DNA of 64,000 nucleotides from Succinivibrio dextrinosolvens (GTDB taxonomy: Bacteria > Pseudomonadota > Gammaproteobacteria > Enterobacterales > Succinivibrionaceae). The stretch covers positions 2,006,747 through 2,070,746 of the forward strand of contig NZ_CP047056.1 of NCBI RefSeq assembly GCF_011065405.1. Direction: 5' to 3'. The notes below the pieces were generated by a model, which was given only the letters and a program-made list of their open reading frames with translations, had not been told where the DNA came from and searched no databases. Of the stretch, positions 28,575 through 47,361 are shown one piece after another. How positions within the stretch are numbered: the first letter of the stretch is position 1; each line of letters starts with the position of its first letter. The translations under genes and the position numbers were made by a program.

Positions 28575-28590
28575 TATCATGGAAATCCAC

Positions 28591-28649
28591 AAAAAAAGGC
28601 TGGAAACTTTAATCATGGAAAGAACATCCCTTTCATGACATTTCCAGCC
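28591..28649 (-). terminator. Terminator of the transsulfuration operon
   Basis: Perfect 9-bp arms GGCTGGAAA (28598-28606) and TTTCCAGCC (28641-28649) enclose a second hairpin. The seven A at 28591-28597 give a T-run on the minus strand, right after the last gene of the operon. Confidence 0.88.
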
Positions 28650-28674
28650 AAACCATGAACAAGAAAATTAAATG

Positions 28675-29586: not shown

Positions 29587-29596
29587 TTTTCCCTCC

Positions 29597-30754: not shown

Positions 30755-30780
30755 GGTTAATTTCCTTGTTTCTCTGTTTG

Positions 30781-31635: not shown

Positions 31636-31674
31636 TTTTCAATCCCACTTTCTGTGTTGATTTTTTTGAAGTAA

Positions 31675-31693
31675 TCAAAGCTTTCTGCTTTGA
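31675..31693 (-). repeat. Leader hairpin before the methyltransferase gene
   Basis: TCAAAGC and GCTTTGA (7 bp) around a 5-base loop lie between the poly-Cys leader stop codon and the first structural gene, about 40 bases before its start. No T-run follows on the minus strand, so it is not an intrinsic terminator. It may take part in leader-peptide control. Confidence 0.55.
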
Positions 31694-31738
31694 CGTAACT
31701 TGATTAAATAAGGTATATGCCTGTATTAGCTGTATTTA

Positions 31739-31855
31739 TTAACAACAACAGCAACAACAGTATAAAGATAGGTTCTTTGAAGAGAAAACAAAGGTAGAGG
31801 CACGCAGATTTGAATCTGTGCTCTTTACTGTGCTATGTAAATGTAAATTTGTCAT
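31739..31855 (-). CDS. Poly-cysteine leader peptide of the transsulfuration operon
   Basis: An unannotated 38-codon frame on the minus strand begins at the ATG at 31855 (AAGGGA about 12 bases upstream). It ends with a tyrosine followed by six cysteine codons (TGT TGT TGC TGT TGT TGT) and then TAA. The first 31 codons are unremarkable. It lies 103 bases before the methyltransferase-mccB-mccA operon, and TATAAA at 31883-31888 is a possible -10 box. Ribosomes would pause at the Cys run when charged tRNA-Cys is scarce. Similar polycysteine small frames act as cysteine-responsive attenuators in mycobacteria. What follows the stall here (structure switch, coupling or Rho) is not clear. Confidence 0.8.
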   Translation of the reverse strand: MTNLHLHSTVKSTDSNLRASTFVFSSKNLSLYCCCCCC

Positions 31856-31924
31856 AGTAAAATATTCCCTTTGTTTTCTTTATTTATACAACAGCCAAAA
31901 AAATAAATAAAGTACTTTTTGAAA

Positions 31925-31933
31925 AAAAACTTA
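31925..31933 (+). repeat. Target-site duplication, left copy
   Basis: AAAAACTTA directly abuts the left end of the insertion sequence and matches the nine bases after its right end. Flanking bases make the exact length ambiguous (9-11). Confidence 0.8.
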
Positions 31934-31966
31934 TACGGTGACCAAATGATACGGACTTTGATCACA
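31934..31966 (+). repeat. Left terminal inverted repeat of the insertion sequence
   Basis: 33 bases starting TACGGTGACCAAATGATACG. It is the reverse complement of 33833-33865 with one mismatch and contains its own inner dyad (GTGACCAAA, 31938-31946, with TTTGATCAC, 31957-31965, one mismatch). Confidence 0.9.
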
Positions 31967-32156
31967 GTTTAATTTTGGTTGTAATCAACTTACAATCTGC
32001 TTTTTTAAAATCTAATTCTTTTCTTATTTTTATGAACTTGGGATCACGCCTTGAATTATTTGTGTGATTCAAGGATCAAACTATGATATTTTGCTAGATT
32101 TCTTTCTGTGTTTCTGATCAAATAATGATAGTTTAGGCTTCAGGAAATCAATCACG

Positions 32157-33674
32157 ATGGATGGCGAATTCAATATATCCGCAAAATTAGAGGAACTTGC
32201 CTGTTCTTCTAATCGCTTTTCATCTCCTGTTAAGCCTCAAATCGATTATGAACAGGAATATATCGAGATATTCAGAGCCTTCGGCTTAAGTGAATTCGAA
32301 ATTGAAGATCAGCTCGATAAATGGGAACTCTCCAAGCTAAAGGCTGAACGTTTCTATAAGCGTAATCCTAAATATCGAATTATTCACGAGATCCTTGATG
32401 GTATTTATGCCGATGTAGCCCATGTTGATCCCCGTGATCAGGAACTCATCTCTTATAACATCGCAGTTGTGCTCTTTGTTGTTTTACTAGCAGGAGTCAG
32501 TAACTGCAATGATGATGCTGAGATTGCTGAATTCTGGTTTTTCAACAATATGGAGCTGCAGCACCTTGTTCCGGGAATGCCTTCACCAAAACACATGATC
32601 TCCGATGAAACAGTGCGAACCATTCGCAAACTTGTTCCTGAGGATGTTATGCACGCAATCTTTACGAAGTACTTCAATAAAGTAAAAGTAAGCATAGCAG
32701 ATATGATTAAGAACAAGGACTATGACTCCCAGAACTATAGAAAGACTCTGGGAGGAGATGGTCAGGAACTGAGAGCTACCTATAGAGAAGGCTCCTTCAG
32801 CCGCAAGAAGAAAGGCGGACACGGAGTCAGCATCTATGACAGTGACAGTCAGGAGGTTGTTGGCTTTAAGACAGTGCATAGGAAGAATCAGGAAGTGCAG
32901 GCCTTCATTGATATTCTGGACAAAATCACCATCGATGAAGATGCCATCTTCTACGCAGATGCCCTAAATCTCAGAGATATCCTCATAAGCTATCTTGATT
33001 TCAGAAACATAGACTGGTTCTTTCCTGTCAAAGAAAACAATGGCAACAAAGACCTGAGAGATGTTATCGTAAAAGCATTTAATGATAATTCTGATAACAG
33101 CGAGGTATTCTCTCATGAGTCTCTGGAAAAGATATCAGGACGCATAGAGGAAACCTCTATTAAGATGATGAGTGCAGACGTACTGTCTGAGGAAATTAGA
33201 AGTCAGTACGGTAAAGCAGCCACTATCGTCATTGTTACCAGGAAGACATCTAAATACTGTGCAAGAAATACTAATCCTGATGAACAGCCAAGGCCTACAA
33301 CTACACAGAGGTATTACATTTCCTCTCTAAAGCCAACTCATGAGAACTTCCGTCAGCTGGTTCATTCAATAGGTGTACGATGGTATTTCGAGACTCATCA
33401 TAATACTCTGGACAGCTTTTTCCTTCAGGATAAACAGGCTTTATGCGATAAGGATAATATCAATGTCACCGTTGCCAAGAACAAAATTCTTTACAATGTC
33501 ACCTCCTACGCAAGACAGAGACTGTCTCAGGAGGGCTTTAGAAGAACGAAATTCCGAACAGAAAGTTCTGAAAAACGAAAACCTCTGTCCTTCAAAATGA
33601 CACGTCAGGCCCTGGCAAGTGATATCTACCTGGCATTTAAGATAATCACAGACTACTTCATAGAAGAACTATAA
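32157..33674 (+). CDS. Transposase, DDE type, ISAs1-like
   Basis: A 505-residue transposase. The likely catalytic residues are the Asp in GGDGQELRA near 201, the Asp in FYADALNLRD near 263 and the Glu in RWYFETHHNTLD near 411. The RYYISSL motif near 386 and FFPVKENNG near 287 are typical of the ISAs1 group. It is about 130 residues longer than usual, with an extra N-terminal region. The frame is intact from ATG to stop and bounded by matched inverted repeats. AGGA lies 12-15 bases before the ATG. Confidence 0.85.
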   Translation: MDGEFNISAKLEELACSSNRFSSPVKPQIDYEQEYIEIFRAFGLSEFEIEDQLDKWELSKLKAERFYKRNPKYRIIHEILDGIYADVAHVDPRDQELISYNIAVVLFVVLLAGVSNCNDDAEIAEFWFFNNMELQHLVPGMPSPKHMISDETVRTIRKLVPEDVMHAIFTKYFNKVKVSIADMIKNKDYDSQNYRKTLGGDGQELRATYREGSFSRKKKGGHGVSIYDSDSQEVVGFKTVHRKNQEVQAFIDILDKITIDEDAIFYADALNLRDILISYLDFRNIDWFFPVKENNGNKDLRDVIVKAFNDNSDNSEVFSHESLEKISGRIEETSIKMMSADVLSEEIRSQYGKAATIVIVTRKTSKYCARNTNPDEQPRPTTTQRYYISSLKPTHENFRQLVHSIGVRWYFETHHNTLDSFFLQDKQALCDKDNINVTVAKNKILYNVTSYARQRLSQEGFRRTKFRTESSEKRKPLSFKMTRQALASDIYLAFKIITDYFIEEL

Positions 33675-33832
33675 GCATCTTGCCTGATGTAGATAAGCTA
33701 TTTCCACAACTCTGAAAATCTCTCAATAATCTCTTGCAAATTACAAAAATAATCTCAAAAATCCTAAGAAAAGATTTAAATTTTAAAAAAGCAGACTGTA
33801 TGTTAAATACAGCCGTTTGATTTTAGTTACAA

Positions 33833-33865
33833 TGTGACCAAAGTCCGTATCATTTGGTCACCGTA
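33833..33865 (-). repeat. Right terminal inverted repeat of the insertion sequence
   Basis: Complement of the left end with one mismatch. Here the inner dyad GTGACCAAA (33834-33842) with TTTGGTCAC (33853-33861) is perfect. Confidence 0.9.
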
Positions 33866-33874
33866 AAAAACTTA
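33866..33874 (+). repeat. Target-site duplication, right copy
   Basis: AAAAACTTA repeats the nine bases found immediately before the left inverted repeat. Confidence 0.8.
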
Positions 33875-33982
33875 TTATCAAGGTAATCTGCGCTTAATAT
33901 TGTGAATTTTCACTATTTTGGTGAATTTAATCTCCATAAAGGGCATCAGATAATGGCTGTTGCCCGGAATTACTGAACTCAA

Positions 33983-35320
33983 TTATGAAGCCAGCTTATG
34001 TTCACGCTCGTCGATAACACGCTTTGATTTATGTTCAGAACGGGTATTCAGACCACCATCCTTGTGAACCACTACGCTTGCTGGTTTTACACCGATTCTG
34101 GCTTTAAGAGTGTTGGCCACAGTACTGATTACCTCAGCATCGTCCTGATCGTTCTCGGCCTTCTTCTCCACCTCAACAGCGTACTTGCAGGTGTAATCCT
34201 GATCATAGATTCTGATTCGGTATTCACCGGTAAGACCAGGAATACTTCTGATTCCTGCCTCAACATCTGAAGGGAAGACGTTAACGGCACTCACGATGAA
34301 CATATCGTCCTTACGTCCTAGAACATGGATTCGTCCATGAGTTCTGCCGCACTTGCAGACAGAGGTATCAATCCAGCCGATATCACCTGTTCTGAAGCGT
34401 ATTAGAGGACGAGCATGCTTGCGCAGTGTGGTGAATACGAACTCACCCTTTGAACCTGGAGGCAGTACTTCACCTGTCTGAGGATCAACTGTTTCCACCA
34501 GAATATGATTCTCAGCGATGTGCAGACCGTCTTTGTACTCACACATTGCAGCACAGGCTCCGAAAATATCGGACAGACCATAGAAGTCGTAAACCTCAGC
34601 CCCCCAAAGCTCCTCGATTGCCTTGCGGGTTTCATTGATTGAACCGCCAAGCTCACCTGCGACAATAATCTTCTTGATGTTTAAATCCTTCTTAGGATCG
34701 ATACCGTTCTTTAAGGCTTTCTCACCTAACTGCCAAGCATATGAAGGAGAGGTCCAGATTACGGTTGGCTTATAGTTCTGCAGCACCCAAAGCAGTCTCT
34801 CTGAAGGCAGGGTTCCGCCCCAGATGCATAGGGCTCCGGTTTTCTGGGCACCGATAACATCAGGACCGCCTACATATAGAGAGAAATTCAGAGCATGTAC
34901 ATAGCGATCATTTGGTCTTACACCCACCTGCCAGAACCAGCGGGCCTCGGTTTCCTGGAATTCATCAAAATCCTTCTGGGTGAAAGGAGAGATGGTTGGC
35001 ACACCGGTTGAACCTGAAGATGTTGAGATAAAGACCACATCATTCTCTGGTACGGCACACAGCTCACCCAGGAATGAGCCTTTGCCCTGAGTATCGCGCT
35101 GGGTCTTTTTGTCCATGAATGGGAACTTCTCGATATCCTTTAAGGTTACGATATCCTCTGGTTTAACACCTGCCTTGTCGAAAGCTCTCTTGTAGTAAGG
35201 AGAGTTCTCGTAGGCGTATTTGACGATCTTCTTGAGATCGATTAACTGCTGTTTCTCGAGATCCTGACGTGAAATGGTTTCCAGAGCCTCGTTCCAGTAT
35301 TTGCTATCGTTAATAGGCAT
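33983..35320 (-). CDS. Phenylacetate-CoA ligase-family AMP-forming acyl-CoA ligase
   Basis: A 445-residue PaaK-like ligase. The ATP-phosphate loop is TSSGSTGVPT near residues 100-109, with YGLSDIFG near 241-248 as the adenylate motif and RTGD near 312. It contains a CKCGRTHGR Cys pair near 320-328, seen in many PaaK homologues. It activates an aryl or branched acid with ATP and CoA. It is the last gene of an operon with all four subunits of a 2-oxoacid:ferredoxin oxidoreductase, 24 bases after the beta subunit. That pairing fits reductive carboxylation of the acyl-CoA to a 2-oxo acid or the reverse. The substrate acid is not known. Confidence 0.87.
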   Translation of the reverse strand: MPINDSKYWNEALETISRQDLEKQQLIDLKKIVKYAYENSPYYKRAFDKAGVKPEDIVTLKDIEKFPFMDKKTQRDTQGKGSFLGELCAVPENDVVFISTSSGSTGVPTISPFTQKDFDEFQETEARWFWQVGVRPNDRYVHALNFSLYVGGPDVIGAQKTGALCIWGGTLPSERLLWVLQNYKPTVIWTSPSYAWQLGEKALKNGIDPKKDLNIKKIIVAGELGGSINETRKAIEELWGAEVYDFYGLSDIFGACAAMCEYKDGLHIAENHILVETVDPQTGEVLPPGSKGEFVFTTLRKHARPLIRFRTGDIGWIDTSVCKCGRTHGRIHVLGRKDDMFIVSAVNVFPSDVEAGIRSIPGLTGEYRIRIYDQDYTCKYAVEVEKKAENDQDDAEVISTVANTLKARIGVKPASVVVHKDGGLNTRSEHKSKRVIDEREHKLAS

Positions 35321-35344
35321 TTTTAGTATCCTCTTGTTTAATCG

Positions 35345-36241
35345 TTAATTTTTTGAAAAGTACTGTTTATCCAGAAGCTGCCATTTGGCATCTCTCTGGA
35401 AGATAATCTCTTTAATCTCAGTGTCGCTTAAGTGACGGAAGCGTTCCTGACGCTTGATATAATGAGCAACATCTGTAAATTCGCGAGGCCTTCTGTTCAG
35501 TCTGTAGGTACCGTTTTCATATTCGGCCAGATACCACAGACCGCAGTCCACCACTTCCTTGGCAACTTCTACACACTCGTCGGTTCTGATTCCCCAGCCG
35601 GTAGGACATGGAGCCAGTACATGAATGTAGGTTGTTCCTTTAATCGAAGCTGCCTTTTCCACCTTGTTCATAAAATCCTGAAGGTAGCCGATGCTTGCAG
35701 TGGCGCAGTAGCTGATGCCGTGTGCTGCCACAATCTCAAACATATTTTTCTTAACCTTCTGATTCCCTTTAATATTTCTTCCTGCCGGTGTAGTTGTTGT
35801 TCTGGCACCGAAAGGAGTCAGTGAGCTTTTCTGAATACCTGTATTCATATAAGCTTCATTGTCATAGCAGATGTAAAGCACATCATCGTTACGGTCGATG
35901 GCACCAGACAGTGCCTGAATACCGATATCTGCAGTACCGCCGTCACCAGCAAACCCAACCACTTTGTAATCCTTCTTGCCAAGGGCCTTAAGTCCAGCCT
36001 CAATTCCAGTCATCATTGAAGCTGTTCCTGCAAAGGTGGAAATGATGGCATTGTTCTTAAAGCACAGCTGCGGAAAGTTAAAGCCTACAGCTGACATACA
36101 GCCTGCAGGAATCGTCGCAATGGCGTTTGGTCCTATAACCTTGAGCGCGATTCTTACTGCCAGCGCACCACCGCAGCCGGCACAGGCCTTGTGGCCGAAG
36201 AAGAATTCATCCTCTCTTAGAGTATTTACATTTACGCTCAT
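35345..36241 (-). CDS. 2-oxoacid:ferredoxin oxidoreductase, beta (TPP-binding) subunit
   Basis: A 298-residue subunit that binds thiamine diphosphate (GFAGDGGTADIG near residues 96-107, then NDDVLYICYDNEAYMNTG). The N-terminal CAGCGG Cys pair near 19-24 helps hold an iron-sulfur cluster, as in PorB/VorB. It ends 24 bases before the ligase gene and starts 2 bases after the alpha gene. The subunit family does not by itself distinguish pyruvate from branched-chain or aromatic 2-oxoacids. Confidence 0.9.
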   Translation of the reverse strand: MSVNVNTLREDEFFFGHKACAGCGGALAVRIALKVIGPNAIATIPAGCMSAVGFNFPQLCFKNNAIISTFAGTASMMTGIEAGLKALGKKDYKVVGFAGDGGTADIGIQALSGAIDRNDDVLYICYDNEAYMNTGIQKSSLTPFGARTTTTPAGRNIKGNQKVKKNMFEIVAAHGISYCATASIGYLQDFMNKVEKAASIKGTTYIHVLAPCPTGWGIRTDECVEVAKEVVDCGLWYLAEYENGTYRLNRRPREFTDVAHYIKRQERFRHLSDTEIKEIIFQRDAKWQLLDKQYFSKN

Positions 36242-36243
36242 GG

Positions 36244-37401
36244 TTATTCCTCAAGTCCTACAAAACGGATTCCTGACTGTTCTTTTTTAAGATCACCGAA
36301 GATCTCCTCGATATCACTTAGCGGTACATCTCGACCGCCGAGACCTGCAATATAGTTTGAGCATGGAAGGCTTAGTCCCTGATGCTGCAGTGAGGAGCAG
36401 ACATTGGTATAAACTGTGCCCTCATTGCCAAAGGAGATATCCTTCTCTAAAACTCCTGCTGCCTTTGCTCCCTTTAGAGCAGCAGTCAGCTGTACGTGAG
36501 GGAATGGTCTTAAATATCTCAGTCTCAGACAACCGACCTTCTGTCCCTGTGCTCTTAGCTTATCCACACATTCGCAGACACTCTTGTAAAGTGTTCCCAG
36601 TGTGACAACTATGTATTCAGCGTCACCTGTTCGGTATTCTTCAATAAGTCCGGTGTACTGTCGTTTGAAGAACTGCTCAAAACGTCTTTCACACTCAGTA
36701 ATGACATCTCCTGCTGCAAGTACGCCCAGATGTTCCTTATACTTAAACTCTGTATTGGTGTCTGGTCCTGCAGTGAATGCCATGTTTTTGGGTTCTTCAA
36801 GTGAGAGCTTGTTATCTGTTTCATAATCTGGAAGAAATCCCTCCGCCTGTTCATCTGATGGAACTTCAACAGCCTCATAGGTATGAGTCAGAGTAAAGCC
36901 ATCAAGGTTTACCATTACAGGGGTTGCAACCCTTTTTTCCTCTGCAATATAAAAACTCATTAAAGCCAGATCCAAAGCTTCCTGGGCATCCTTGGCATAG
37001 GACTGAATCCAGCCTGAATCCAAGAGTGTCAGAGAATCTCTCTGATCCCCGTAAATATTCCATGGCAGGGCAGTTGAGCGATTGGCATTCATCATGACAA
37101 TCGGAAATCTTCCGCCGGCTGCATAAGGAAGGCATTCAGCCATATACAGCAGTCCCTGTGATGAAGTTGCTGTAAAGGTTCTTGCTCCTACAGCACTTGC
37201 GCCGATGGCGGCAGACAGGGCTGAATGCTCTGACTCAACATGGATGAAATCCGCTTTCAGTTCGCCGCGCTCCACCAGGGTTGCAAGTTTCTCAACCACC
37301 GTAGTCTGCGGTGTAATTGGATAGGCAGAGATAACATGAGGCTTTGAGAGCTTTACTCCATAAGCAAATGCTTCATTACCTGAGAGAAACTCTTTGGTCA
37401 T
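36244..37401 (-). CDS. 2-oxoacid:ferredoxin oxidoreductase, alpha subunit
   Basis: A 385-residue PorA/VorA-type subunit. It starts with the family pattern LSGNEAFAYGVKLSKPHVISAYPITPQT-like sequence near residues 5-30 and has FIHVESEHSALSAAIGASAVGARTFTATSSQG-like segments that interact with the cofactor. Its ATG overlaps the ferredoxin subunit stop by one base. It supplies the catalytic half opposite the TPP subunit. The order gamma-delta-alpha-beta is typical of four-subunit enzymes. Confidence 0.9.
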   Translation of the reverse strand: MTKEFLSGNEAFAYGVKLSKPHVISAYPITPQTTVVEKLATLVERGELKADFIHVESEHSALSAAIGASAVGARTFTATSSQGLLYMAECLPYAAGGRFPIVMMNANRSTALPWNIYGDQRDSLTLLDSGWIQSYAKDAQEALDLALMSFYIAEEKRVATPVMVNLDGFTLTHTYEAVEVPSDEQAEGFLPDYETDNKLSLEEPKNMAFTAGPDTNTEFKYKEHLGVLAAGDVITECERRFEQFFKRQYTGLIEEYRTGDAEYIVVTLGTLYKSVCECVDKLRAQGQKVGCLRLRYLRPFPHVQLTAALKGAKAAGVLEKDISFGNEGTVYTNVCSSLQHQGLSLPCSNYIAGLGGRDVPLSDIEEIFGDLKKEQSGIRFVGLEE

Positions 37402-37688
37402 TATCTTTCCTTCTCCATATGTATTGCGTTCTTGCGGCAGATCTTCTGACAGATTCCGCAGCCCTTGCAGTAGTCATAATCTATGTTTACACTCTCTCCA
37501 TCCTTGCTGATGACTCCATCAGGACAGTACAGATAGCAGAGGAAGCAGCCGTTGCATTTATCTCTGTCGCATACTGGCTTTTCTGTACGAAATCCGCTGT
37601 TAACACTTACCAGAGTATGCTGGTAGGACGGAGCAAACGGTATGTTGCCTAAAGAGGTAAAATCTTTTTCATTTACATCTTTAATCAT
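37401..37688 (-). CDS. 2-oxoacid:ferredoxin oxidoreductase, delta (2[4Fe-4S] ferredoxin) subunit
   Basis: A 95-residue polyferredoxin subunit with two complete cluster motifs, CNGCFLCYLYC (near residues 44-54) and CKGCGICQKIC (near 73-83). It passes electrons from the TPP centre to external ferredoxin. It lies directly after the gamma gene and overlaps the alpha gene by one base. Confidence 0.93.
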   Translation of the reverse strand: MIKDVNEKDFTSLGNIPFAPSYQHTLVSVNSGFRTEKPVCDRDKCNGCFLCYLYCPDGVISKDGESVNIDYDYCKGCGICQKICRKNAIHMEKER

Positions 37689-38210
37689 TTAGGCAACCTC
37701 CTCATAGGCCCTTTTTATCGCCTCAAGATTTAAAGGTGCGATTTTAGGTGACATGAGTTTGTTTACTGCAGGAATCAGATCCTCAATTGTTATGGCATCA
37801 AACGCTCTTAATAGGGCACCTAGAACCACAGTGTTGGTGATTGGCCTTTTCAGAAGTTCAAGAGCAATCTTCTGACCGTCAATACAGATAATTCTTTCAT
37901 CCTCGATTTTCTCTTTGGTGCACAGAATGATTTTTCCGCCATCCTTTAGCTCCTCATAGGCATGCTCATCAAAGAGTGTGTCATCAAGGAATACAACGTA
38001 GTCTGCCTTTCGGATCTGAGAACGGTCACCTATTGAGCCGGTTCCCAGTCTTGAAAAGGCTCTGACCGGAGCACCTCGTCTTTCCGGACCGAAGGATGGA
38101 AAGGCTAAGGCCTTGTTTTCCTCGTCCTTGAAGGTCCAGGCTGCAGATAGCAGTTTCGCTGCTGTAAAAGCCCCCTGTCCGCCTCGTCCATGCCATAAAA
38201 TCTCGTACAT
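37689..38210 (-). CDS. 2-oxoacid:ferredoxin oxidoreductase, gamma subunit
   Basis: A 173-residue PorG/VorC-type subunit with the N-terminal HGRGGQGAFTAAKLLS pattern (residues 7-22) and FPSFGPERRGAPVRAFSR near 38-55, both family hallmarks involved in CoA binding. It is the first gene of the oxidoreductase-ligase operon. An AAGG ribosome site lies before the ATG. The promoter-like block at 38362-38390 is about 150 bases upstream. Confidence 0.92.
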   Translation of the reverse strand: MYEILWHGRGGQGAFTAAKLLSAAWTFKDEENKALAFPSFGPERRGAPVRAFSRLGTGSIGDRSQIRKADYVVFLDDTLFDEHAYEELKDGGKIILCTKEKIEDERIICIDGQKIALELLKRPITNTVVLGALLRAFDAITIEDLIPAVNKLMSPKIAPLNLEAIKRAYEEVA

Positions 38211-38234
38211 GTTTCTAACCTTATAGTTAATGGC

Positions 38235-38247
38235 TATAACTGATTAT
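38235..38247 (+). promoter_or_regulatory. Downstream copy of the shared 13-bp operator motif (oxidoreductase operon)
   Basis: TATAACTGATTAT on the plus strand, inverted relative to the promoter copy and about 143 bases from it centre to centre. It lies 25-37 bases before the first gene of the operon. Confidence 0.6.
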
Positions 38248-38361
38248 AACTATCTATTATTATTCTTTATGTGGTTATAACTTCTGAATAAACCCTTTAT
38301 TTATTCAGTAATTCATACTGTTATCTTATGGGTATGATTTTATAGAAAGGAAAAAATCTGT

Positions 38362-38390
38362 CTAATACTATATTTTTATTATCAGTTATA
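38362..38390 (-). promoter_or_regulatory. Promoter-like block of the oxidoreductase operon, shared with metQ
   Basis: Read on the minus strand: TATAACTGATAAT (38390-38378), seven bases, then TAGTATTAG. It matches 42586-42614 at 26 of 29 positions. TAGTAT is a reasonable -10 box. The 13-bp core would lie between the -35 and -10 positions, where a repressor commonly binds. Confidence 0.65.
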
Positions 38391-38417
38391 ACTATTTTTT
38401 ATATAGAAAAGGAAAGA

Positions 38418-38455
38418 TAAAAAAAAACTCCTTATTTATTGAAAAATAAGGAGTT
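38418..38455 (-). terminator. Terminator of the metQNI-aminotransferase operon
   Basis: Perfect 12-bp arms AACTCCTTATTT (38426-38437) and its complement (38444-38455), with a long A-run at 38419-38427 that gives a T-run on the minus strand. Confidence 0.92.
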
Positions 38456-38514
38456 ATGAACGAGGTATGTGAAAACTTGTATAAAACAAAATGCTAACAG
38501 GTTATAGTCCTGAA

Positions 38515-39675
38515 CTATTTTTTCAGTGCAAATATGTTCTCAAGATTCTTCAGTGCACTGTTTAAGACCTCATCGGATTTGGCAAAGTGCAGTCTTATAT
38601 AGCGGTTTTCCTTTTCCTTGAAGAAAGATGATCCCGGTACTGCTCCAACTTTAATCTTATTTGCCAGATCAAGGCAGAATTCATAGTCATCTTGATAGCC
38701 AAAGGAGCTGATATCCACCAGAACAAAATAGGTTCCATGAGGCTCATAGAAATCAAGATTAAGTTTTTTTAGTCCACCACAGAAAAGAATCTTTCTGTGG
38801 GTAAAGAGCGCTCTTACATCCTGATAGTAGGAATCAGGGAGTTTCAGTCCCTGAATAATAGCCTTCTGCAGAGGGGCTGCTGCACCAACAGTTAAAAAGT
38901 CATGTACCTTGCGGATTCTGTCCATAACCTCAGGAGGAGCTGCAACATAACCTAATCTCCAGCCTGTAATGGAATAGGTTTTAGAGAGGGAGTTGCACAT
39001 AATGGTTCTCTCTCTCATTCCATCTAAAGAGGCAAAGTAGGTATGCTGGTAAGGCTCAAAGATAATGTGCTCATAAACCTCATCGGTAATTACAAAGGCA
39101 TTGTATTTTTCAACAAGAGCAGCGATGGTTAAAAGCTCTTCTCGGGTAAAGACTTTGCCGCTTGGGTTTGAAGGGTTACAGAGGATCAGTGCTTTGGCTC
39201 CCTGTGCGAAAGCTTTTTCAAGCTCCTTCTCGTCAAAAGAGAAATCCGGCGTATGAAGCGGAACATAGATTGGTTCTGCACCGCAGAGAATGGCATCAGC
39301 ACCGTAGTTCTCGTAGAAAGGTGAGAATATGGCTATCTTATCTCCTGGATTTAAGGTAGCCATGACGGCACTCATCATGGCCTCGGTTCCGCCACAGGTG
39401 ATACACAGTTCGGTATCAGGATTGTAGCGAATACCTGAGAAGTGTTCAATTTTAGCGGACAGAGCCTCTCGAGTATCCTGAGCTCCGAAGGTGATGGAAT
39501 ACTGATGAGGTCCTGAAAGCGCAATCTCTGAAAGACTTTTGGTCATTTCAAATGGCGGCGGATTGTCAGGAAAGCCCTGAGAGAGGTTGATCGCGCCGCA
39601 GCTGTTACAAATTCTGGTCATACGGCGGATGACCGAATCGGTAAAGTATTTAGTTCTTTCACTTAGAGTAATCAT
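38515..39675 (-). CDS. PLP-dependent class I aminotransferase
   Basis: A 386-residue fold-type I aminotransferase. The PLP lysine is in SLSKTYSITGWRLGY near residue 233, with CNPSNPSGKVF near 167-177, YSITFGAQDTREAL near 58 and the carboxylate-binding Arg in YIRLHFAKS near 365. It begins 22 bases after metI, so it belongs to the methionine transport operon. It resembles kynurenine/methionine-type aminotransferases that act on methionine and aromatic amino acids. A role converting imported methionine to its 2-oxo acid is inferred from the operon. Confidence 0.85.
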   Translation of the reverse strand: MITLSERTKYFTDSVIRRMTRICNSCGAINLSQGFPDNPPPFEMTKSLSEIALSGPHQYSITFGAQDTREALSAKIEHFSGIRYNPDTELCITCGGTEAMMSAVMATLNPGDKIAIFSPFYENYGADAILCGAEPIYVPLHTPDFSFDEKELEKAFAQGAKALILCNPSNPSGKVFTREELLTIAALVEKYNAFVITDEVYEHIIFEPYQHTYFASLDGMRERTIMCNSLSKTYSITGWRLGYVAAPPEVMDRIRKVHDFLTVGAAAPLQKAIIQGLKLPDSYYQDVRALFTHRKILFCGGLKKLNLDFYEPHGTYFVLVDISSFGYQDDYEFCLDLANKIKVGAVPGSSFFKEKENRYIRLHFAKSDEVLNSALKNLENIFALKK

Positions 39676-39697
39676 GAGTATCCTTTATTCAGTTCTT

Positions 39698-40375
39698 TTA
39701 GTGAGTCAGCAGTTTTGCAATTCTGTCACCGGTTAACTGGGCTAACTGTACTATTACAACCAGCACCACAATGGTGAAAATCATAACACCGGTTTCGTAG
39801 CGGTAGTAGCCGTACTGTATAGCCAGGTTGCCGATGCCACCGCCTCCAACCATGCCGGCCATTGCAGAACAGCCGATAAGATTGATGAAGGTAATGGTAA
39901 TACCTCTTACAATTGCCGGAGCCGCTTCAACCAGAAGTACATTCTTTATGATCAGAAAATGTGAGGCGCCGGTGGCTATGGCTGCCTCGATAACTCCGGC
40001 ATCAACCTCTTTTAAGGCACTTTCAACCAGTCTTGCAAAGAATACTATAGCTGCAATAGAAAGTGGTACTGATGCTGCTATAGGACCTATTTTGGTGCCG
40101 ACAAGAATAAAGGTTAAGGGCAGAGAGAAAACCACCAGAATAATAAACGGTATTGAGCGGATGATATTGATAAAAGCTGATACTGTTTTATTAAGACTTA
40201 TGGTTTTTTCAAAAAAAGTCTTTCCAGAGGTCAGATAAAGTACAAACCCCAGAGCAAGACCGAAAATCAGACTCAGGGAAAAGGAAATCCCTATCATCAG
40301 AGCTGTTTCATAGATGGATTTCACAAATTCATTCCGCAGAATATTTATTGTTGATTCTATTAGTTCGCTGTTCAT
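39698..40375 (-). CDS. metI: Methionine ABC transporter permease
   Basis: A 225-residue inner-membrane permease with five to six membrane segments. The ABC-docking EAA loop appears as VIEAAIATGASHFLIIKNVLL near residues 122-142. The C-terminal GGGGIGNLAIQYGYYRY stretch is typical of MetI. It is placed 3 bases after metN in the usual metN-metI order. It imports D- and L-methionine together with MetN and MetQ. Confidence 0.94.
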   Translation of the reverse strand: MNSELIESTINILRNEFVKSIYETALMIGISFSLSLIFGLALGFVLYLTSGKTFFEKTISLNKTVSAFINIIRSIPFIILVVFSLPLTFILVGTKIGPIAASVPLSIAAIVFFARLVESALKEVDAGVIEAAIATGASHFLIIKNVLLVEAAPAIVRGITITFINLIGCSAMAGMVGGGGIGNLAIQYGYYRYETGVMIFTIVVLVVIVQLAQLTGDRIAKLLTH

Positions 40376-40378
40376 TTG

Positions 40379-41389
40379 CTACTCCGCATTCAATCTGGTT
40401 ATAAAGGTTTTCTGCTTTAGGTAGCTGATTACAGCCTCCCTGTCTTTGTCATCCCTTGAACGCAGGGAAATAAGCAGTCTGCCGATTGGCTTATCCTGCA
40501 CATACTCAATGTTGCCTTCGATAATTGATACATCTGTTTTCAGGAATTTTCTGGAAACATCTGAGATTACCGGATCAAAGGCGCCCTGCTCTTTATAGGT
40601 GATCATGTAGAGGTCTTTTTCCTGTTCTAATACCTTCTTTGGCACAGCTTTTCTGTAATCACTGCTGATAAGAGCTCTTGCTGCCTCTGACTGAGGTGTT
40701 GCAAAGAGGGTATAGGAAGGAGCTACCTCAGCCAGTCGCCCTTTTTCCATCACAGCTATTCTGTCAAACAGAGATTTTGCAACCTCCATCTGATGGGTAA
40801 TAAACAGAATGGTTATAGGATAGTGATTCTTTATGTTGCGCAGTGTCTGAATCACTTCCTTGGTATTGTCTGGGTCAAGTGCAGAGGTAGCCTCATCACA
40901 TAGAAGGATCTCTGGATTGTTAGCCAGAGCGCGGGCTATTGCCACGCGCTGTTTCTGACCGCCTGATAATGATGGCGGAAATAAATCCGCCTTATCTGCA
41001 AGGCCTACCAGTTCTAAAAGCTCAGGTACTCTTTTCTGAATGTCCTTTGTGGGAGTTCTTGAGGCCTTAAGAGCAAAAGCTATGTTATCGTAGACAGTGG
41101 CATTGGATATCAGGTTGAAATGCTGAAAGATCATGCCGATATTCTGTCTTAGGTTACGAAGCGTTATGCCACTGTAGTTTACGATGTTCTTCCCATTGAT
41201 ATACACATTACCTGAGGTTGGTTTCTGCAGCAGATTTACTGTGCGAACCAGTGTCGACTTACCTGCTCCAGAGGCGCCTACTATTCCAAAGAATTCGCCT
41301 TTGTTGATGGTTAGGTTCACTTTATCAACAGCTGTGTATTCTGTATCTGCATTTCTGAACTTAACACTTAGGTTTTCGAATCTAATCAT
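40379..41389 (-). CDS. metN: Methionine ABC transporter ATP-binding protein
   Basis: A 336-residue ATPase with Walker A GASGAGKST (37-45), signature LSGGQKQRVAIARAL near 141-155, Walker B ILLCDEATSALD near 160-171, and a C-terminal NIL (methionine-sensing) domain from about residue 260. The NIL domain inhibits transport when internal methionine is high. It lies between metQ and metI. Confidence 0.95.
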   Translation of the reverse strand: MIRFENLSVKFRNADTEYTAVDKVNLTINKGEFFGIVGASGAGKSTLVRTVNLLQKPTSGNVYINGKNIVNYSGITLRNLRQNIGMIFQHFNLISNATVYDNIAFALKASRTPTKDIQKRVPELLELVGLADKADLFPPSLSGGQKQRVAIARALANNPEILLCDEATSALDPDNTKEVIQTLRNIKNHYPITILFITHQMEVAKSLFDRIAVMEKGRLAEVAPSYTLFATPQSEAARALISSDYRKAVPKKVLEQEKDLYMITYKEQGAFDPVISDVSRKFLKTDVSIIEGNIEYVQDKPIGRLLISLRSRDDKDREAVISYLKQKTFITRLNAE

Positions 41390-41423
41390 TTTTTATTTCC
41401 GATAAAGGTTATATTTATTCTTA

Positions 41424-42275
41424 TTAGTTTGCAGGCCACCACTGTGGTTTAGCAAAATCTCTGTATAGAGGATCTGCATTCACTGATGAGGTGAACTCTC
41501 TGCTTGCAACTGCATCCTTTAAGAAGGCTCCAACTGTATTTACACGGTCGCTCTGTACGGTAACCACCAGTTTGATTGGCTCTGAAACCTTCTCCTTGGC
41601 AAGGGCCTTGTCAAATGGTAGTTTTGCTTCATAGGCATAGTTGCCTGGTACCAGGGCCAGATCGGTTGAATCCAGAGAACGAGGTAGCTGAGCTGCTTCC
41701 ATTGGTACAAAGTTCAGGTGTTTAGGATTCTTGTCGATATCAGCTATTGAGGCCTTGAGATCATCCTTATCAGCTTTGAGAGTGATAATACCGGCATCGC
41801 GGGCGAATCTCAGCGCGCGGGAGAGGTTTACCGCATCGTTTGGCAGGGCAACCAAAGCTCCGTCTTTCAGGTCATCCAGAGATTTAACCTTATCTGAGAA
41901 GGCGAACAGGCCTAAGGTTGGTACATTGATAACCTCATCAAGCTTTAGCCCCTGGTTTTCTACAATTGCCTTCAGGTAGATTGAATGCTGGAACAGATTG
42001 GCGTCGATTTCTCCTGCATCCAGGGCGGAATCAGGCTGAACCCAGTCTGAGAATTCCACGAAATCAAGCTTATGTCCTCTGCTCTCAACCACCTTTGTCA
42101 GATGATTCTTTAGCAGATCTTTGTATGGTCCTGGTACCACACCGATTTTGATGTGTTCAGGAACAGTATCTGCCTTGGCTGACTTGTTGCCATCATCGTT
42201 GCAGGCGGTTAGAGAAAAGGCTAAAAATGCTGAAAAAACAGTTAGTAATATATTCTTCTTTGAAAATTTTGACAT
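41424..42275 (-). CDS. metQ: Methionine-binding lipoprotein
   Basis: A 283-residue NLPA/MetQ family lipoprotein. The lipobox LTAC ends the signal peptide at Cys25. Family features include IKIGVVPGP near 44-52, DANLFQHSIYL near 92-102 and ALVPGNYAYEA near 211-221. It captures methionine in the periplasm for MetNI. It is the first structural gene after an unusual Cys-Met leader peptide, which points to translation-based control. AGGAG lies 7-11 bases before the ATG. Confidence 0.95.
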   Translation of the reverse strand: MSKFSKKNILLTVFSAFLAFSLTACNDDGNKSAKADTVPEHIKIGVVPGPYKDLLKNHLTKVVESRGHKLDFVEFSDWVQPDSALDAGEIDANLFQHSIYLKAIVENQGLKLDEVINVPTLGLFAFSDKVKSLDDLKDGALVALPNDAVNLSRALRFARDAGIITLKADKDDLKASIADIDKNPKHLNFVPMEAAQLPRSLDSTDLALVPGNYAYEAKLPFDKALAKEKVSEPIKLVVTVQSDRVNTVGAFLKDAVASREFTSSVNADPLYRDFAKPQWWPAN

Positions 42276-42355
42276 GATAAAACTCCTGACAGTTACACAT
42301 GGAACTGCGAAAAAAAAATTAATTTAACTATTTGAAATTTACTGTTGCGGTTGTG

Positions 42356-42493
42356 CTACATGCACATACACATACACATACAGTCAGAGGTGCTGTCAGA
42401 GTATTTGTTGAAGGTAATTCTAAGGTCAGAAACAAAGACTGCTTCTTCCTTGAAGACAGCTTCTATCTGATGGTATAACTGATTATTTTTCAT
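42356..42493 (-). CDS. Cys-Met leader peptide of the metQNI operon
   Basis: An unannotated 45-codon frame on the minus strand. The ATG at 42493 has AAGGA six bases upstream, a good ribosome site. After a mixed N-terminal part it ends with the codons TGT ATG TGT ATG TGT ATG TGC ATG TAG: four Cys-Met pairs directly before the stop. It lies 80 bases before metQ. In the DNA the run looks like an ACATAC hexamer repeat, but the frame, ribosome site and position argue for a peptide. Low charged tRNA-Cys or tRNA-Met should stall ribosomes there. A small stem TGTGC/GCACA encloses the stop codon. How stalling affects metQ is not clear. Confidence 0.78.
   Translation of the reverse strand: MKNNQLYHQIEAVFKEEAVFVSDLRITFNKYSDSTSDCMCMCMCM
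42474..42486 (+). promoter_or_regulatory. Downstream copy of the shared 13-bp operator motif (metQ)
   Basis: TATAACTGATTAT on the plus strand, identical to 38235-38247. It lies inside codons 3-7 of the leader peptide frame, inverted relative to and about 128 bases from the promoter copy. Confidence 0.6.
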
Positions 42494-42585
42494 AATATTC
42501 CTTAAATTTTCTATTTAGAGGATTTCTGTTTTTATTGTTGGTTATCTTTCGATGGGACTATTGTTATCTGTAATGATTTTTTTTG

Positions 42586-42614
42586 CTAATACTAATTTTT
42601 AATTATCAGTTATA
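42586..42614 (-). promoter_or_regulatory. Promoter-like block of metQNI
   Basis: On the minus strand TATAACTGATAAT (42614-42602) is followed after seven bases by TAGTATTAG. It matches the block upstream of the oxidoreductase operon at 26 of 29 positions. Using TAGTAT as -10, transcription would start near 42580, about 90 bases before the leader peptide. Confidence 0.65.
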
Positions 42615-42718
42615 GTTTTTAACTAATAAAAGAATAACATATTGAAAATAAGGAAAAATAATTAAGACTAAACAGCTTAAAAGACAGGAAATACGGGGAA
42701 ATTTTTTCTTTATATAAG

Positions 42719-42749
42719 AAAAATGCAGGTTTGCATCTGCAGACCTGCA
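42719..42749 (-). terminator. Terminator of glnL-glnG
   Basis: TGCAGGT (42724-42730) and ACCTGCA (42743-42749) form a 7-bp stem with five A at 42719-42723 giving a T-run on the minus strand. Confidence 0.75.
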
Positions 42750-42783
42750 CTTAAAAAATACATTACTATGAAATGCTTTGAGC

Positions 42784-44220
42784 TTATTTAAGGTTCAGTT
42801 CCTTAATCTTTCTGGTCAGAGTATTTCTACCCCAGCCTAAAAGCTTGGCTGATTCCTGCTTGTGGTTGCCGGTAAAGGTCAGGGTAGCCTCAAGCATAAC
42901 CTTTTCAAACTCAGGCACAGCCTCATTAAGAATATCTCTTTCACCTGCCTTAAGCTTTGCATCCACCCAGCTTCTGAGCATATCCTGCCAGGACTGATTC
43001 TCTTTGGAAACAGCTCCTCCTGAGGTATTCTTGTTCTGGTTGCTGTTGGCATGCAGGAACTCTGATGGCAGATCAACCAGCTGAATATCACGTCCGGTAA
43101 CCATAATGGTCAGGTACTTGCACAGATTCTTTAGCTGACGGACATTGCCTGGCCATGGCAGACGGCACAGGAATACAAGAACCTCAGAGGTCAGCTTTTT
43201 AGGCTCGGTATGGCCCTCGGCTGCAGCCTGAGCCAGGAAGTGCTTGGTTAACAGAGGAATATCATTATTTCTGTCTCTTAGAGGCGGAATGTTGATATTG
43301 ATGATGTTCAGTCTGTAGAACAGATCAGAATTAAATGTGCCTTTGGCAATCTTAGCCTCTAAATCCTGAGAGGTTGAAGCTATAACTCTTATGTTTGACT
43401 TGATTGCTGTGGTGCTGTCGATGTTGGTGTATTCGCCTGTCTGCAGGAGCTTTAACAGTCTTGACTGGCAGTCCATTGGCAGATCGTTGATTTCGCTGAT
43501 GAAAAGTGTACCGCCTTCAGCCTTGGCGATTGCACAGTTTGAAGGATCTTTGGTCAAATCACCAAAAAGCTCATACTTAACCATTTCCTGTGGAATGGAA
43601 GAGATATTGATTGACACAAAGTTCTTGGAGGTTCTCTCTCCGTGGTTGTGCAGTGCCTTGGCAACCTGTCCTCTGCCGGTACCGATTTCACCGTGAATCA
43701 GTACAGGAAGATCAGTCTTGGAAACACGGCCGATAAACTTGAAGACTTCCTGCATTGCAGGTGATTTACCGATAATCTCGTTTTCCTCTTTCTGCTCAAC
43801 AGGAGCATTCATGAGAGTATTGCGGTTTCTCTGGCTAACCAGCTGCAGCATGTTAACTCTGTGAACAGCAGCTCTTCTGATAACTGCAACAGCCTGATCG
43901 ATATCAAAAGGTTTTGGCAGGTATTCAAATGAGCCCTCATTGAAGGCATCAATTGCAGCAGACAGGTCGGAATGAGCAGTCATGATAATGAATGGAATGT
44001 TCTCGTCTACCTCGTGAACGGCTTTGATGAGCTCAAGTCCGTTGATACCTGGCATTTTGATGTCTGAGACAATAACATCAGGGGTTTCCTTTTTGATTGC
44101 TTCAAGAGCTGCTTCTGCATTCTCAAATAAACGGTGATTAATGCTGTTAACATCTAATGCTTTATCGAAAACAAAACGAATGCTTGCATCATCGTCTATT
44201 ACCCAAATCATTGGATTCAT
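42784..44220 (-). CDS. glnG: NtrC-type nitrogen response regulator with degenerate AAA+ domain
   Basis: A 478-residue NtrC homologue in full length: receiver domain with phospho-acceptor Asp53 (VSDIKMPG), AAA+ domain (about 147-380) and C-terminal Fis-type helix-turn-helix ending NTLTRKIKELNLK. The AAA+ core is altered. The Walker A lysine is Arg183 (GEIGTGRG), the Walker B Asp is Ser242 (GGTLFISEI), and the sigma-54 contact loop GAFTGA is missing after ELFG (217-220). The arginine-finger region SDLFYRLN and the DNA-binding helix remain. It is 2 bases after glnL. It may bind DNA and act without sigma-54. Confidence 0.9.
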   Translation of the reverse strand: MNPMIWVIDDDASIRFVFDKALDVNSINHRLFENAEAALEAIKKETPDVIVSDIKMPGINGLELIKAVHEVDENIPFIIMTAHSDLSAAIDAFNEGSFEYLPKPFDIDQAVAVIRRAAVHRVNMLQLVSQRNRNTLMNAPVEQKEENEIIGKSPAMQEVFKFIGRVSKTDLPVLIHGEIGTGRGQVAKALHNHGERTSKNFVSINISSIPQEMVKYELFGDLTKDPSNCAIAKAEGGTLFISEINDLPMDCQSRLLKLLQTGEYTNIDSTTAIKSNIRVIASTSQDLEAKIAKGTFNSDLFYRLNIININIPPLRDRNNDIPLLTKHFLAQAAAEGHTEPKKLTSEVLVFLCRLPWPGNVRQLKNLCKYLTIMVTGRDIQLVDLPSEFLHANSNQNKNTSGGAVSKENQSWQDMLRSWVDAKLKAGERDILNEAVPEFEKVMLEATLTFTGNHKQESAKLLGWGRNTLTRKIKELNLK

Positions 44221-44222
44221 TA

Positions 44223-45320
44223 TCAGTATTCTCCGTGATTTTCTGTTTTGATTGGTAAAATTATTTTAAAAGTGGTTTCGTGAGCATCTGACAGACACTC
44301 AATGGTTCCATTATGGCGTTCGATTATGTTTAGAGCCAAAGATAATCCAAGTCCGTTCCCGTTAGGCTTGGTGGTTACCATTGGATAAAACAGAGTCTTT
44401 TTTAATTGTTCACTAATCTGTGGTCCGTTGTTGATGATTGAGATCACCATGCATAGAGGGTATTTTGTTTCTCTGATGATGGTTCTGAAGCTGGCACGGG
44501 TTCTAATCTTAATGAAAGGATCAGTAAAGACCTCATTATCCAGCGCATCAATAGCGTTGTTAACAATGTTGAGGATTACCTGCTCAATGGAGTCAGAGTC
44601 TAAAGCGAGTTCTGGCAGGGAAGGATCGTAGTCTCGCTCAATTCTGATTCGCTTGCAGTTATCCTGCATCTGTACAAGTTTAATAACCTTCTCAATCAGG
44701 TAGTGTATATTGACCTCGGTAAGTGGATTTGGTCGCTGAGGTCCTAACAGGTTGTTGACCAGTACCTTGAGACGGTCAGTCTCTTCAATAATAACCTTGG
44801 TATATTCCCTAAGATTCTCAACCTTATCAGCATATGTCATCTCAATAAGCTGAGCTGCGCCTCTGATGCCTCCCAAAGGATTCTTGATTTCGTGTGCCAG
44901 GTTGCGAATAAGGTCACGGGCAGCATTGTACTGAAGATTCTGCTGAGCCTGGTTGATAAGTTTTTCCTGATGGGCAATAGGGTGAATCTCAACTAGGAAT
45001 CCGTCAAAATTATTGTATGTATACTGGAAGATGGTAAGGTCGGCTTTGGAGGATTTGCCAGGATAAGGAGAAAAACGCACATCGGCGGCGGAGAAACCTT
45101 GGAAATTGATATTGAAATCAGGATTATTCAGCGTATCTATCAGCGTGATTTCTTCTCTATCCACCAGATCAGACAGCTTCTGTGTCTGCAGACGATTTCT
45201 CGAGATTCCACACAGCTGTTCAGCAGCGGTATTCGCGTAAAGGATATTCATTTCCTTGTTCGTGATCATTACCGCCGTTGTCAGGTTTTCTAATACATTT
45301 GCCTTATCAATTTCGGACAT
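44223..45320 (-). CDS. glnL: Nitrogen regulation sensor histidine kinase NtrB
   Basis: A 365-residue cytoplasmic kinase with an N-terminal PAS domain (about 8-60), the phosphorylated His143 in NLAHEIKNPLGG, an N box NIVNNAIDAL near 248-257 and G boxes ISIINNGP and GNGLGLSLA. All catalytic motifs are intact. It phosphorylates the NtrC encoded 2 bases downstream in response to PII-type nitrogen signals. The glnA gene that usually precedes it is absent from this position. Confidence 0.94.
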   Translation of the reverse strand: MSEIDKANVLENLTTAVMITNKEMNILYANTAAEQLCGISRNRLQTQKLSDLVDREEITLIDTLNNPDFNINFQGFSAADVRFSPYPGKSSKADLTIFQYTYNNFDGFLVEIHPIAHQEKLINQAQQNLQYNAARDLIRNLAHEIKNPLGGIRGAAQLIEMTYADKVENLREYTKVIIEETDRLKVLVNNLLGPQRPNPLTEVNIHYLIEKVIKLVQMQDNCKRIRIERDYDPSLPELALDSDSIEQVILNIVNNAIDALDNEVFTDPFIKIRTRASFRTIIRETKYPLCMVISIINNGPQISEQLKKTLFYPMVTTKPNGNGLGLSLALNIIERHNGTIECLSDAHETTFKIILPIKTENHGEY

Positions 45321-45391
45321 CAGATTGCCTATAACGTTCTATAATAGTGCATGTGATATTTTCTTACACTTTATCACAAAATTTGAAAATA

Positions 45392-45414
45392 GCACAAAAA
45401 TAGTGCACTATTTT
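45392..45414. promoter_or_regulatory. NtrC-binding-like site upstream of glnL
   Basis: GCAC (45392-45395), seven bases, GTGC (45403-45406) matches the NtrC consensus spacing. It overlaps a perfect 18-bp palindrome, AAAATAGTGCACTATTTT (45397-45414). It lies about 70-95 bases before the glnL start, consistent with autoregulation. Confidence 0.6.
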
Positions 45415-45471
45415 AAGCTATATAGCAGTTAAACCTGATATTAACTTGATCTACCTAGAATTTTTGGTAAT

Positions 45472-45503
45472 AAAAAAGCCTGCACCAAAATGGAACAGGC
45501 TTT
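45472..45503 (-). terminator. Terminator of typA
   Basis: AAAGCCTG (45475-45482) and CAGGCTTT (45496-45503) form an 8-bp stem. The A-run at 45472-45477 gives a T-run on the minus strand. Confidence 0.85.
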
Positions 45504-45522
45504 ATGATCCTAAACTTTTGTC

Positions 45523-47361
45523 TTATTCGTCAGCTTTCTTACCGCCAGCGGCTCTGAATGCACGAACACGATCAAGTTCAGACAGATTCTTCTTACGGAT
45601 TCTGATGCTCTGAGGGGTAACCTCAACCAGCTCGTCCTCATTGATGAACTCAAGAGCCTGCTCCAGAGTCATTTTAACAGCTGGGGTCAGGATAATGTTA
45701 TCGTCCGAACCTGCTGCACGAACGTTGGTCAGCTTCTTGGTCTTTAATGGGTTAACAGTCAGATCGTTTGAACGAACATGCAGGCCGATAACCTCACCCT
45801 CGTAGATCTCTTCACCTGGAGATACAAACAGTCTGCCACGCTCCTGCAGGAACCATAGAGCATATGGAACAGCCTTACCGGTATCATTTGAGATCAGAAC
45901 ACCATTCTGTCTCTCGCCGATGCTGCCGCCTGCATACTCATCGTAGCTGTCGAAGGTGTGGAACATTAAACCGGTACCTGAGGTTAGAGTCATATATAGA
46001 GACTGGTAGCCGATAAGACCACGTGCTGGAATACGGTAATCAAGACGAACACGTCCCTTTCCGTCTGGAACCATGTTCTTAAGTTCGCCCTTACGCAGAC
46101 CAAGCTCTTCCATAACAGGACCCTGGTGCTCTTCCTGAAGATCCAGTGTCAGGATCTCATATGGCTCAAGAGTTCTGCCGCCTTCCTTGTGAAGAATAAC
46201 CTCTGGACGGGATACAGCCAGCTCGTAACCTTCACGACGCATCTCTTCGATCAGAACAGACAGGTGCAGCTCACCACGGCCTGATACCTTGAATCGGTCG
46301 GTATCTTCTGTAGCTTCAACACGCAGAGCAACGTTGTGAACCAGCTCTTCACGTAATCTTTCTTCAATGTTTCTTGAAGTAATGAACTTGCCTTCACGAC
46401 CAGCAAATGGGGAGGTGTTAACGCAAAAGTTCATGGAAACTGTAGGCTCATCAACTGATAAGGCTGGCAGAGCTTCAACAGCTGAAGTGTCACAGATGGT
46501 ATCTGAAATCTTCAGCTCGCCTAAACCGGTAACTGCAATAATGTCACCTGCCTCAGCACTTTCAACCTGGGTTCTGTGAAGACCTAGGTAGCCCAGAACC
46601 TGACCAATTTTACCGGTACGGGTATTGCCGTCACGGTCAATGATGGTTACTGCCTGATTTGCCTTGGCTACACCGCGCTTTACACGGCCAACACCGATAA
46701 CACCTACATATGAGGTGAAATCAAGTGAAGAGATCTGCATCTGGAATGGACCTTCAAGATCAGCATCTGGAGGGCTTACCTTGTCAACGATAGCCTGGAA
46801 CAGTGGCTCCATATTGTCGCCGTGATTATCAAGTTCCAAGGATGCCCATCCCTGGAAAGCTGAAGCATAAACTACTGGGAAATCCAGCTGCTCATCTGTT
46901 GCGCCAAGATTGTCGAACAGATCGAAAATCTGATCTATAACCCAGTCTGGTCTTGCGCCTTCACGGTCACACTTGTTGATAACAACAATTGGCTTTAAAC
47001 CTGCAGCGAAAGCCTTCTGAGTTACGAAACGTGTCTGTGGCATTGGGCCGTCTACTGCATCTACAAGCAGCAGTACTGAGTCAACCATAGACATAACACG
47101 TTCTACTTCACCACCGAAATCAGCGTGGCCTGGGGTATCAACGATATTAATGCGGTAATCTTTCCAGTTGATAGCAGTATTTTTTGAAAGAATAGTAATA
47201 CCACGCTCTTTTTCGATATCATTTGAGTCCATGATACGTTCCTGACCGATTTCGTTACGGTCAAGAGTTCCTGACTGGCGCAGCAATTTATCAACTAGTG
47301 TTGTTTTTCCGTGATCAACATGAGCAATAATAGCAATGTTACGGATCTTCTGAACATCCAT
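45523..47361 (-). CDS. typA: Ribosome-associated translational GTPase TypA/BipA
   Basis: A 612-residue elongation-factor-like GTPase. G1 is AHVDHGKTT near residues 13-21, G3 [11 protein letters not shown] near 77-87, G4 NKCD near 131-134. The EF-G-like domains and the C-terminal BipA domain are complete. It aids ribosome assembly and stress adaptation. It lies upstream of glnL on the same strand and ends in its own terminator; in E. coli typA is next to glnA-glnL-glnG. Confidence 0.97.

Follow-up and report, generated by a model that had tools for sequence, protein, structure and literature searches.

A putative leader peptide ending in alternating cysteine and methionine codons upstream of the metQNI importer operon in Succinivibrio

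Introduction

Control of the met genes is usually attributed to MetJ, SAM riboswitches or T-boxes. Classical attenuators, in turn, are exemplified by the trp, his, thr and ilv leaders, and single leaders that respond to several amino acids are known. Here we describe a short frame in the gut bacterium Succinivibrio which, like these leaders, carries a run of codons for an amino acid handled by its operon. Quite probably, it encodes a leader peptide through which ribosome-mediated attenuation responds to sulfur amino acids.

Among the closest described systems are leaders with cysteine codons. Leaders with Cys runs and without terminators were predicted in 2005 in front of mycobacterial cys operons (PMC1262725), and cysteine-responsive attenuation has been reported in mycobacteria (Canestrari 2020, as cited in PMC9094748 and PMC13236596), with cysteine genes being under translation attenuation according to PMC13236596. 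In addition, the uORFC-8-2 motif, which contains Cys codons, was found upstream of cysS of Rhodobacterales (PMC8632094). Like the mycobacterial uORFs, the leader described here is a short ORF in front of genes for sulfur amino acids, has a run of codons for such amino acids close to the stop and lacks an intrinsic terminator. However, the mycobacterial uORFs contain Cys codons only, precede biosynthesis genes and belong to Actinobacteria, whereas our leader alternates Cys and Met codons, precedes a Met importer and comes from a gammaproteobacterium. With uORFC-8-2 it shares the Cys codons in a uORF and the status of a candidate for attenuation, but the latter motif has two tandem Cys codons, an intrinsic terminator, a tRNA synthetase gene downstream and an alphaproteobacterial host. 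Attenuation of amino acid genes by a leader peptide is thus known; the Met/Cys pair, the importer as target and the lineage are new. Among the titles listed in searches of the open-licence literature, none concerned a Met or Met/Cys leader in front of a met importer. Within that literature, and if our reading is true, it would be the first attenuator described for this pair of amino acids.

The leader frame lies directly upstream of metQNI

The window, i.e., the whole stretch of 64,000 nucleotides that was analyzed, belongs to a Succinivibrio genome consisting of a single contig of 3,468,545 bases. Its minus strand contains, at 42356-42493 (-), an ORF of 45 amino acids plus stop (MKNNQLYHQIEAVFKEEAVFVSDLRITFNKYSDSTSDCMCMCMCM) whose last codons are TGT ATG TGT ATG TGT ATG TGC ATG TAG, that is, CMCMCMCM followed by the stop. 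The four Cys-Met codon pairs adjoining the stop (42359..42382, -) form what we consider the regulatory block. A Shine-Dalgarno-like AAGGAA (42498..42503, -) precedes the ATG of the leader by 4 nt, and the string AAGGAATATTATG is common to all five loci of the group formed by the window and its four closest other genomes. The leader stop is separated by 80 nt from the ATG of metQ (42275), whose Shine-Dalgarno region is CTGTCAGGAGT (42282..42292, -). Both the frame, with its ribosome site and alternating Cys/Met end, and its position 80 bases before a methionine importer were thus confirmed as given in a preliminary description of this DNA. Upstream of the leader is ntrC, followed by a terminator-like hairpin at 42724-42741.

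The genes directly 3' of the leader are arranged in the order metQ-metN-metI-aminotransferase. The metQ gene (41424..42275, -) encodes an NlpA/MetQ-type substrate-binding lipoprotein (PF03180, E 6e-60; the NCBIfam models for MetQ scored below their cut-offs), metN (40379..41389, -) an ATPase with a NIL domain (TIGR02314 at E 2.4e-93, short of its cut-off; PF09383, over its own) and metI (39698..40375, -) the permease (NF008049, E 2.1e-57, 194.3 bits versus a cut-off of 212). A class I/II aminotransferase gene (38515..39675, -), called by a profile match, is possibly the last of the operon. For these calls, the best NCBIfam matches were below the curated cut-offs and the best Pfam matches above them.

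The composition of the leader is rare in the window. Among the 1566 small frames of 8-100 amino acids counted in the window, only two have at least six Cys/Met per 12 codons, namely the CMCM leader (8) and a poly-Cys leader (6). Furthermore, the 18-base pattern TGYATGTGYATGTGYATG was unique to the leader site in the 3.47 Mb genome, where it gave two overlapping matches.

The frame is conserved in the closest genomes

We compared the regions upstream of the metQ orthologs in the closest other genomes (MetQ identity 95-99%), with Succinivibrio dextrinosolvens DSM 3072 and ACV-10 as named close relatives for the locus. The leader frame was kept in 4/4 of them, and the Cys codons varied synonymously between TGT and TGC across the five genomes. 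The leaders were 43, 37, 37 and 44 amino acids long, compared to 45 in the window, and ended in 3, 3, 3 and 4 Cys-Met pairs, compared to 4, with DSM 3072 among those that carry three pairs. Indels near the leader N terminus stayed in frame. In the eight divergent pairs of genomes, pS was 0.41-0.60 and pN 0.11-0.17, and dN/dS was 0.10-0.27 in 9 of the 10 pairs among the five genomes, the value of 0.62 coming from a pair with only four differences. Frame-shifted versions of the hexamer repeat, which would have marked it as a mere DNA repeat, were looked for in the homologs and none was seen. Judging from these alignments, the leader frame appears to be under purifying selection, and a chance repeat is unlikely because the frame is kept in all four genomes, the indels are in frame and dN/dS is low.

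Cys/Met leaders precede other met importer genes

We then looked at 81 regions upstream of NlpA/MetQ-type genes, a subset of the NlpA matches listed that includes orthologous rows, so that the counts are not independent; one locus (L038) was left out of this set since its gene is cut by a contig end. A small frame with at least six Cys/Met per 12 codons preceded 15 of these 81 genes, compared to 0.03 per shuffled set. With a threshold of at least five, the numbers were 17 of 81 versus 0.8 in shuffles. At least four Cys/Met per 12 codons were found in 20/81 regions, compared to 4/43 regions in front of window ORFs, a figure that includes both leaders of the window. We sorted the 15 leaders into about seven dissimilar sequences: the window group (five), L008, L018/L019, L033, L071, the L074 group (four) and L090. 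The window group, L008 and L018/L019 precede orthologous metQ genes and may have a common origin. The exact sequence TGYATGTGYATG was present in 12 of the 19 genomes of our genus sample, with 21 distinct sites in total, 9 of which lay before metQ/NlpA or metN-like genes.

The source genome encodes eight NlpA/MetQ-type substrate-binding proteins, and Cys/Met leaders precede two of the eight genes, the other six being without one. The second leader (...SSMCTCHSCTLMCM, L074; in locus L193, C1:2367000-2372000) is followed by a MetQ-like gene and then by an MsrA/MsrB fusion gene, a gene content that suggests uptake and repair of methionine sulfoxide.

Among the 20 loci found with the MetQ of the window (L003-L022), no Cys/Met leader was present in six (L009, L011, L012, L013, L021 and L022). 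Met codons were present in all related metQ leaders found, and Cys codons in only part of them. In other genera, the leaders of metQ orthologs (L014, L020, L053 and L054) were rich in Met and had an Arg-Met step at their end, some of them being without Cys; those of L053 and L054 lie 386 and 529 nt, respectively, before the match. The Arg-Met step, encoded by CGAATG or CGTATG, is common to the orthologous metQ leaders L008, L014-L020, L053 and L054, after which Pro and, at the stop, a small hairpin are often found.

Outside importer loci, small frames with at least five Cys/Met per 12 codons were found before none of 11 metA and none of 3 cysE genes, some of these stretches being cut by contig ends. 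In other genera, none of the 18 loci read, from 50 matches listed to a 12-base pattern, lay before an NlpA gene.

Some relatives have the anatomy of classical attenuators

At four loci of other Succinivibrio genomes (L033, L090, L114 and L122), the Met/Cys block is located in the middle of the leader and is combined with an intrinsic terminator. Three of these leaders precede NlpA genes, namely L033 (...METVMCMCMRRNSGLPGRGFRI), L114 (MDKTWENACCRMCMCMMRRTRRAS) and L090 (...MCMFSMCCVMCMMCSVMASAYIQKS), and L122 (MNSILCAALMTMCMCMCRYAARSYAFPDHHN) precedes a metN-like gene. The terminator hairpins, which have T-rich tails, were calculated at -13.9 (L033), -18.4 (L114), -12.2 (L090) and -14.1 kcal/mol (L122), and L017 has a -15.6 hairpin before T6. 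An antiterminator inside the leader, after the block, was supported at L033 (p 0.024), L114 (p 0.034) and L122 (p 0.034) and was not significant at L090 (p 0.763), where the terminator is present. When a ribosome stalled in the block was modeled against one at the stop, the antiterminator probability increased at 12/12 codons in L090, 7/7 in L122 and 5/8 in L114, and modeled stalling made no real difference at L033. Based on their predicted folding, some relatives are thus classical attenuators in anatomy, sharing terminators with them, whereas the window copy has none. At L122 (G016:C95), an O-acetylhomoserine sulfhydrylase-like gene lies in the opposite orientation.

The window copy may act on the metQ ribosome-binding site

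Among the elements of a classical transcription attenuator, the window copy has the upstream ORF and the codon run for an amino acid of the operon, but a terminator/antiterminator pair is missing. Indeed, a search of the window's leader-metQ spacer for an intrinsic terminator found none; in the relative G003 (L005), the spacer contains a weak AT-rich hairpin before T7. At the leader stop, the window has a small hairpin, TGTGC-ATGTA-GCACA (42352..42366, -), identical in the five genomes, with the stop codon at the loop and 3' arm. Hairpins were found at the same place, in other letters, in L008, L014, L018 and L019. At a threshold of 0.05, none of these nine was better than dinucleotide-shuffled sequences (p 0.057-0.537), unlike the hairpins at shifted positions in L015, L016, L053 and L054 (p 0.000-0.017).

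The Shine-Dalgarno sequence of metQ had its best pairing partner in the codons that immediately precede the block, and in 4/5 loci this was the same site of the alignment. At L004, the best partner starts at the shared site and, within the leader alone, lies elsewhere. In the window this candidate anti-Shine-Dalgarno sequence is ACTCTGACAG (42393..42402, -), with the first Cys codon 10 nt downstream. Compared to shuffles, the duplex gave p values of 0.227, 0.517, 0.170, 0.000 and 0.087 for the five loci, the value of 0.000 being that of DSM 3072. Across the five, 88% of the cells paired in fixed columns with no two-sided change, and 127/500 shuffles did as well; by eye, the inner part of the helix in DSM 3072 and G003 is retained only via a register shift. 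In an ensemble model, stalling clearly freed the metQ Shine-Dalgarno in 1/5 loci (L007). The L074 group had no pairing site in common.

We thus propose the following model. A shortage of Met-tRNA or Cys-tRNA would stall the ribosome in the Cys/Met block and lead to expression of metQNI, and with Met and Cys both plentiful the ribosome would complete the leader and the importer would be kept low. For the window copy, we suggest tentatively, on the basis of the pairing model and at somewhat less than even confidence, that the stalled ribosome covers the anti-Shine-Dalgarno just before the block and thereby exposes the Shine-Dalgarno of metQ.

Alternative explanations

The view that the frame encodes a leader peptide, already taken in the preliminary description, is supported by the selection on the frame, the other Cys/Met leaders before met importers and the relatives with terminators and antiterminators. 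One alternative, in which the hexamers form a chance repeat in DNA that is not translated, is very improbable. The number of TGTATG units does differ between genomes, at 3 or 4 pairs. As a hexamer unit cannot shift the frame, however, this variation proves nothing by itself; against a chance repeat stand the purifying selection, the in-frame indels outside the repeat and the leaders at other loci whose Cys/Met codons are not in a repeat. The early judgment that coincidence was unlikely has thus been borne out by selection, in-frame indels and Cys/Met-rich leaders elsewhere. It is also rather improbable, though less so, that the segment before the block (RIT-NKYSD-TS) sets stalling in the ribosome tunnel as a nascent-chain arrest peptide. 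The peptide is mostly conserved despite changes at synonymous sites, but its N-terminal half is variable and tRNA starvation would be enough to account for the block.

Two further alternatives retain the leader and are doubtful to a similar degree. The same leader could work by Rho-dependent termination, in which case a ribosome stalled beside the stop would cover a site for Rho loading within the 80 nt of spacer. This would suit a copy without intrinsic terminator and a block that adjoins the stop, as in the window leader and the L074 group, and a Rho platform was proposed for those mycobacterial cys leaders that carry Cys runs close to the stop and lack a terminator (Seliverstov 2005, PMC1262725); the spacer, however, is short and partly diverged among the five genomes. 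Alternatively, the leader would sense methionine only, the Cys codons being tolerated filler or an aid to stalling. Orthologous metQ leaders indeed keep Met (CMRMTF, SMAMSMRMSH, KRMPVLA and YIRMYS), whereas L014, L015, L020 and L054 have no Cys or have it only at a distance (L015 and L020 as judged by eye). On the other hand, Cys is interleaved in most leaders found (window group, L008, L018, L019, L033, L071, the L074 group, L090, L114 and L122), and a poly-Cys leader lies 10 kb away. Dual sensing of Met and Cys by the window leader, as raised in the preliminary description, is likely rather than certain, because Cys is not in all related metQ leaders and 6 of the 20 metQ loci have no such leader.

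Returning to leader-peptide attenuation as the preferred reading, we consider it conceivable, if slightly less than an even proposition, that methionine import in Succinivibrio is governed by leaders reading Met and Cys charging jointly, with blocks in the middle of the leader coupled to a terminator and blocks at its end that mostly lack one and may be helped by a conserved nascent peptide. Such leaders pose a simple question, namely whether a single leader can respond to two sulfur amino acids simultaneously, and they may account for some short frames that lie unannotated in front of met importers of rumen and gut bacteria.

Other regulators and sulfur amino acid genes

We found no MetJ in 27 genomes of the family, the source genome included and several being incomplete drafts, whereas 15/18 genomes from other families of the order have it. 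No SAM-I riboswitch was detected in the 19 genus genomes (up to 117 candidates scored per genome), and no Rfam element, other SAM classes included, reached its gathering score in the window at 28000-46000 or at 20 loci. SAM riboswitches and MetJ act elsewhere on the same target genes, but neither was found here. If leaders replace them, attenuation can take over targets in lineages without the repressor.

The metA gene was found in 17 of the 19 genus genomes and cysE-like genes in all 19 (17 over the cut-off), with the source genome carrying both, so that it shows no obvious auxotrophy for Met or Cys. In view of these genes in the genus, we dropped the idea that the importer would serve both amino acids because Met was the sole source of sulfur.

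Further leader-like frames

The poly-Cys leader (MTNLHLHSTVKSTDSNLRASTFVFSSKNLSLYCCCCCC) is located at 31739-31855 (-) in the window. It is followed after 103 nt by a TIGR00027-type methyltransferase gene and a cystathionine gamma-lyase-like gene, and no intrinsic terminator was found for it. It is conserved in ACV-10 (L149), and this counterpart was the sole recognized leader among 30 loci read of the 62 matches listed to the poly-Cys pattern; other short frames were seen at L137/L153, L152 and L160. Finally, locus L107 (G006:C4) contains a leader-like frame ending in CMRMCMCM with a porin-like gene 248 nt downstream, and its N terminus resembles, by eye, the metQ leader of L019 from the same genome.
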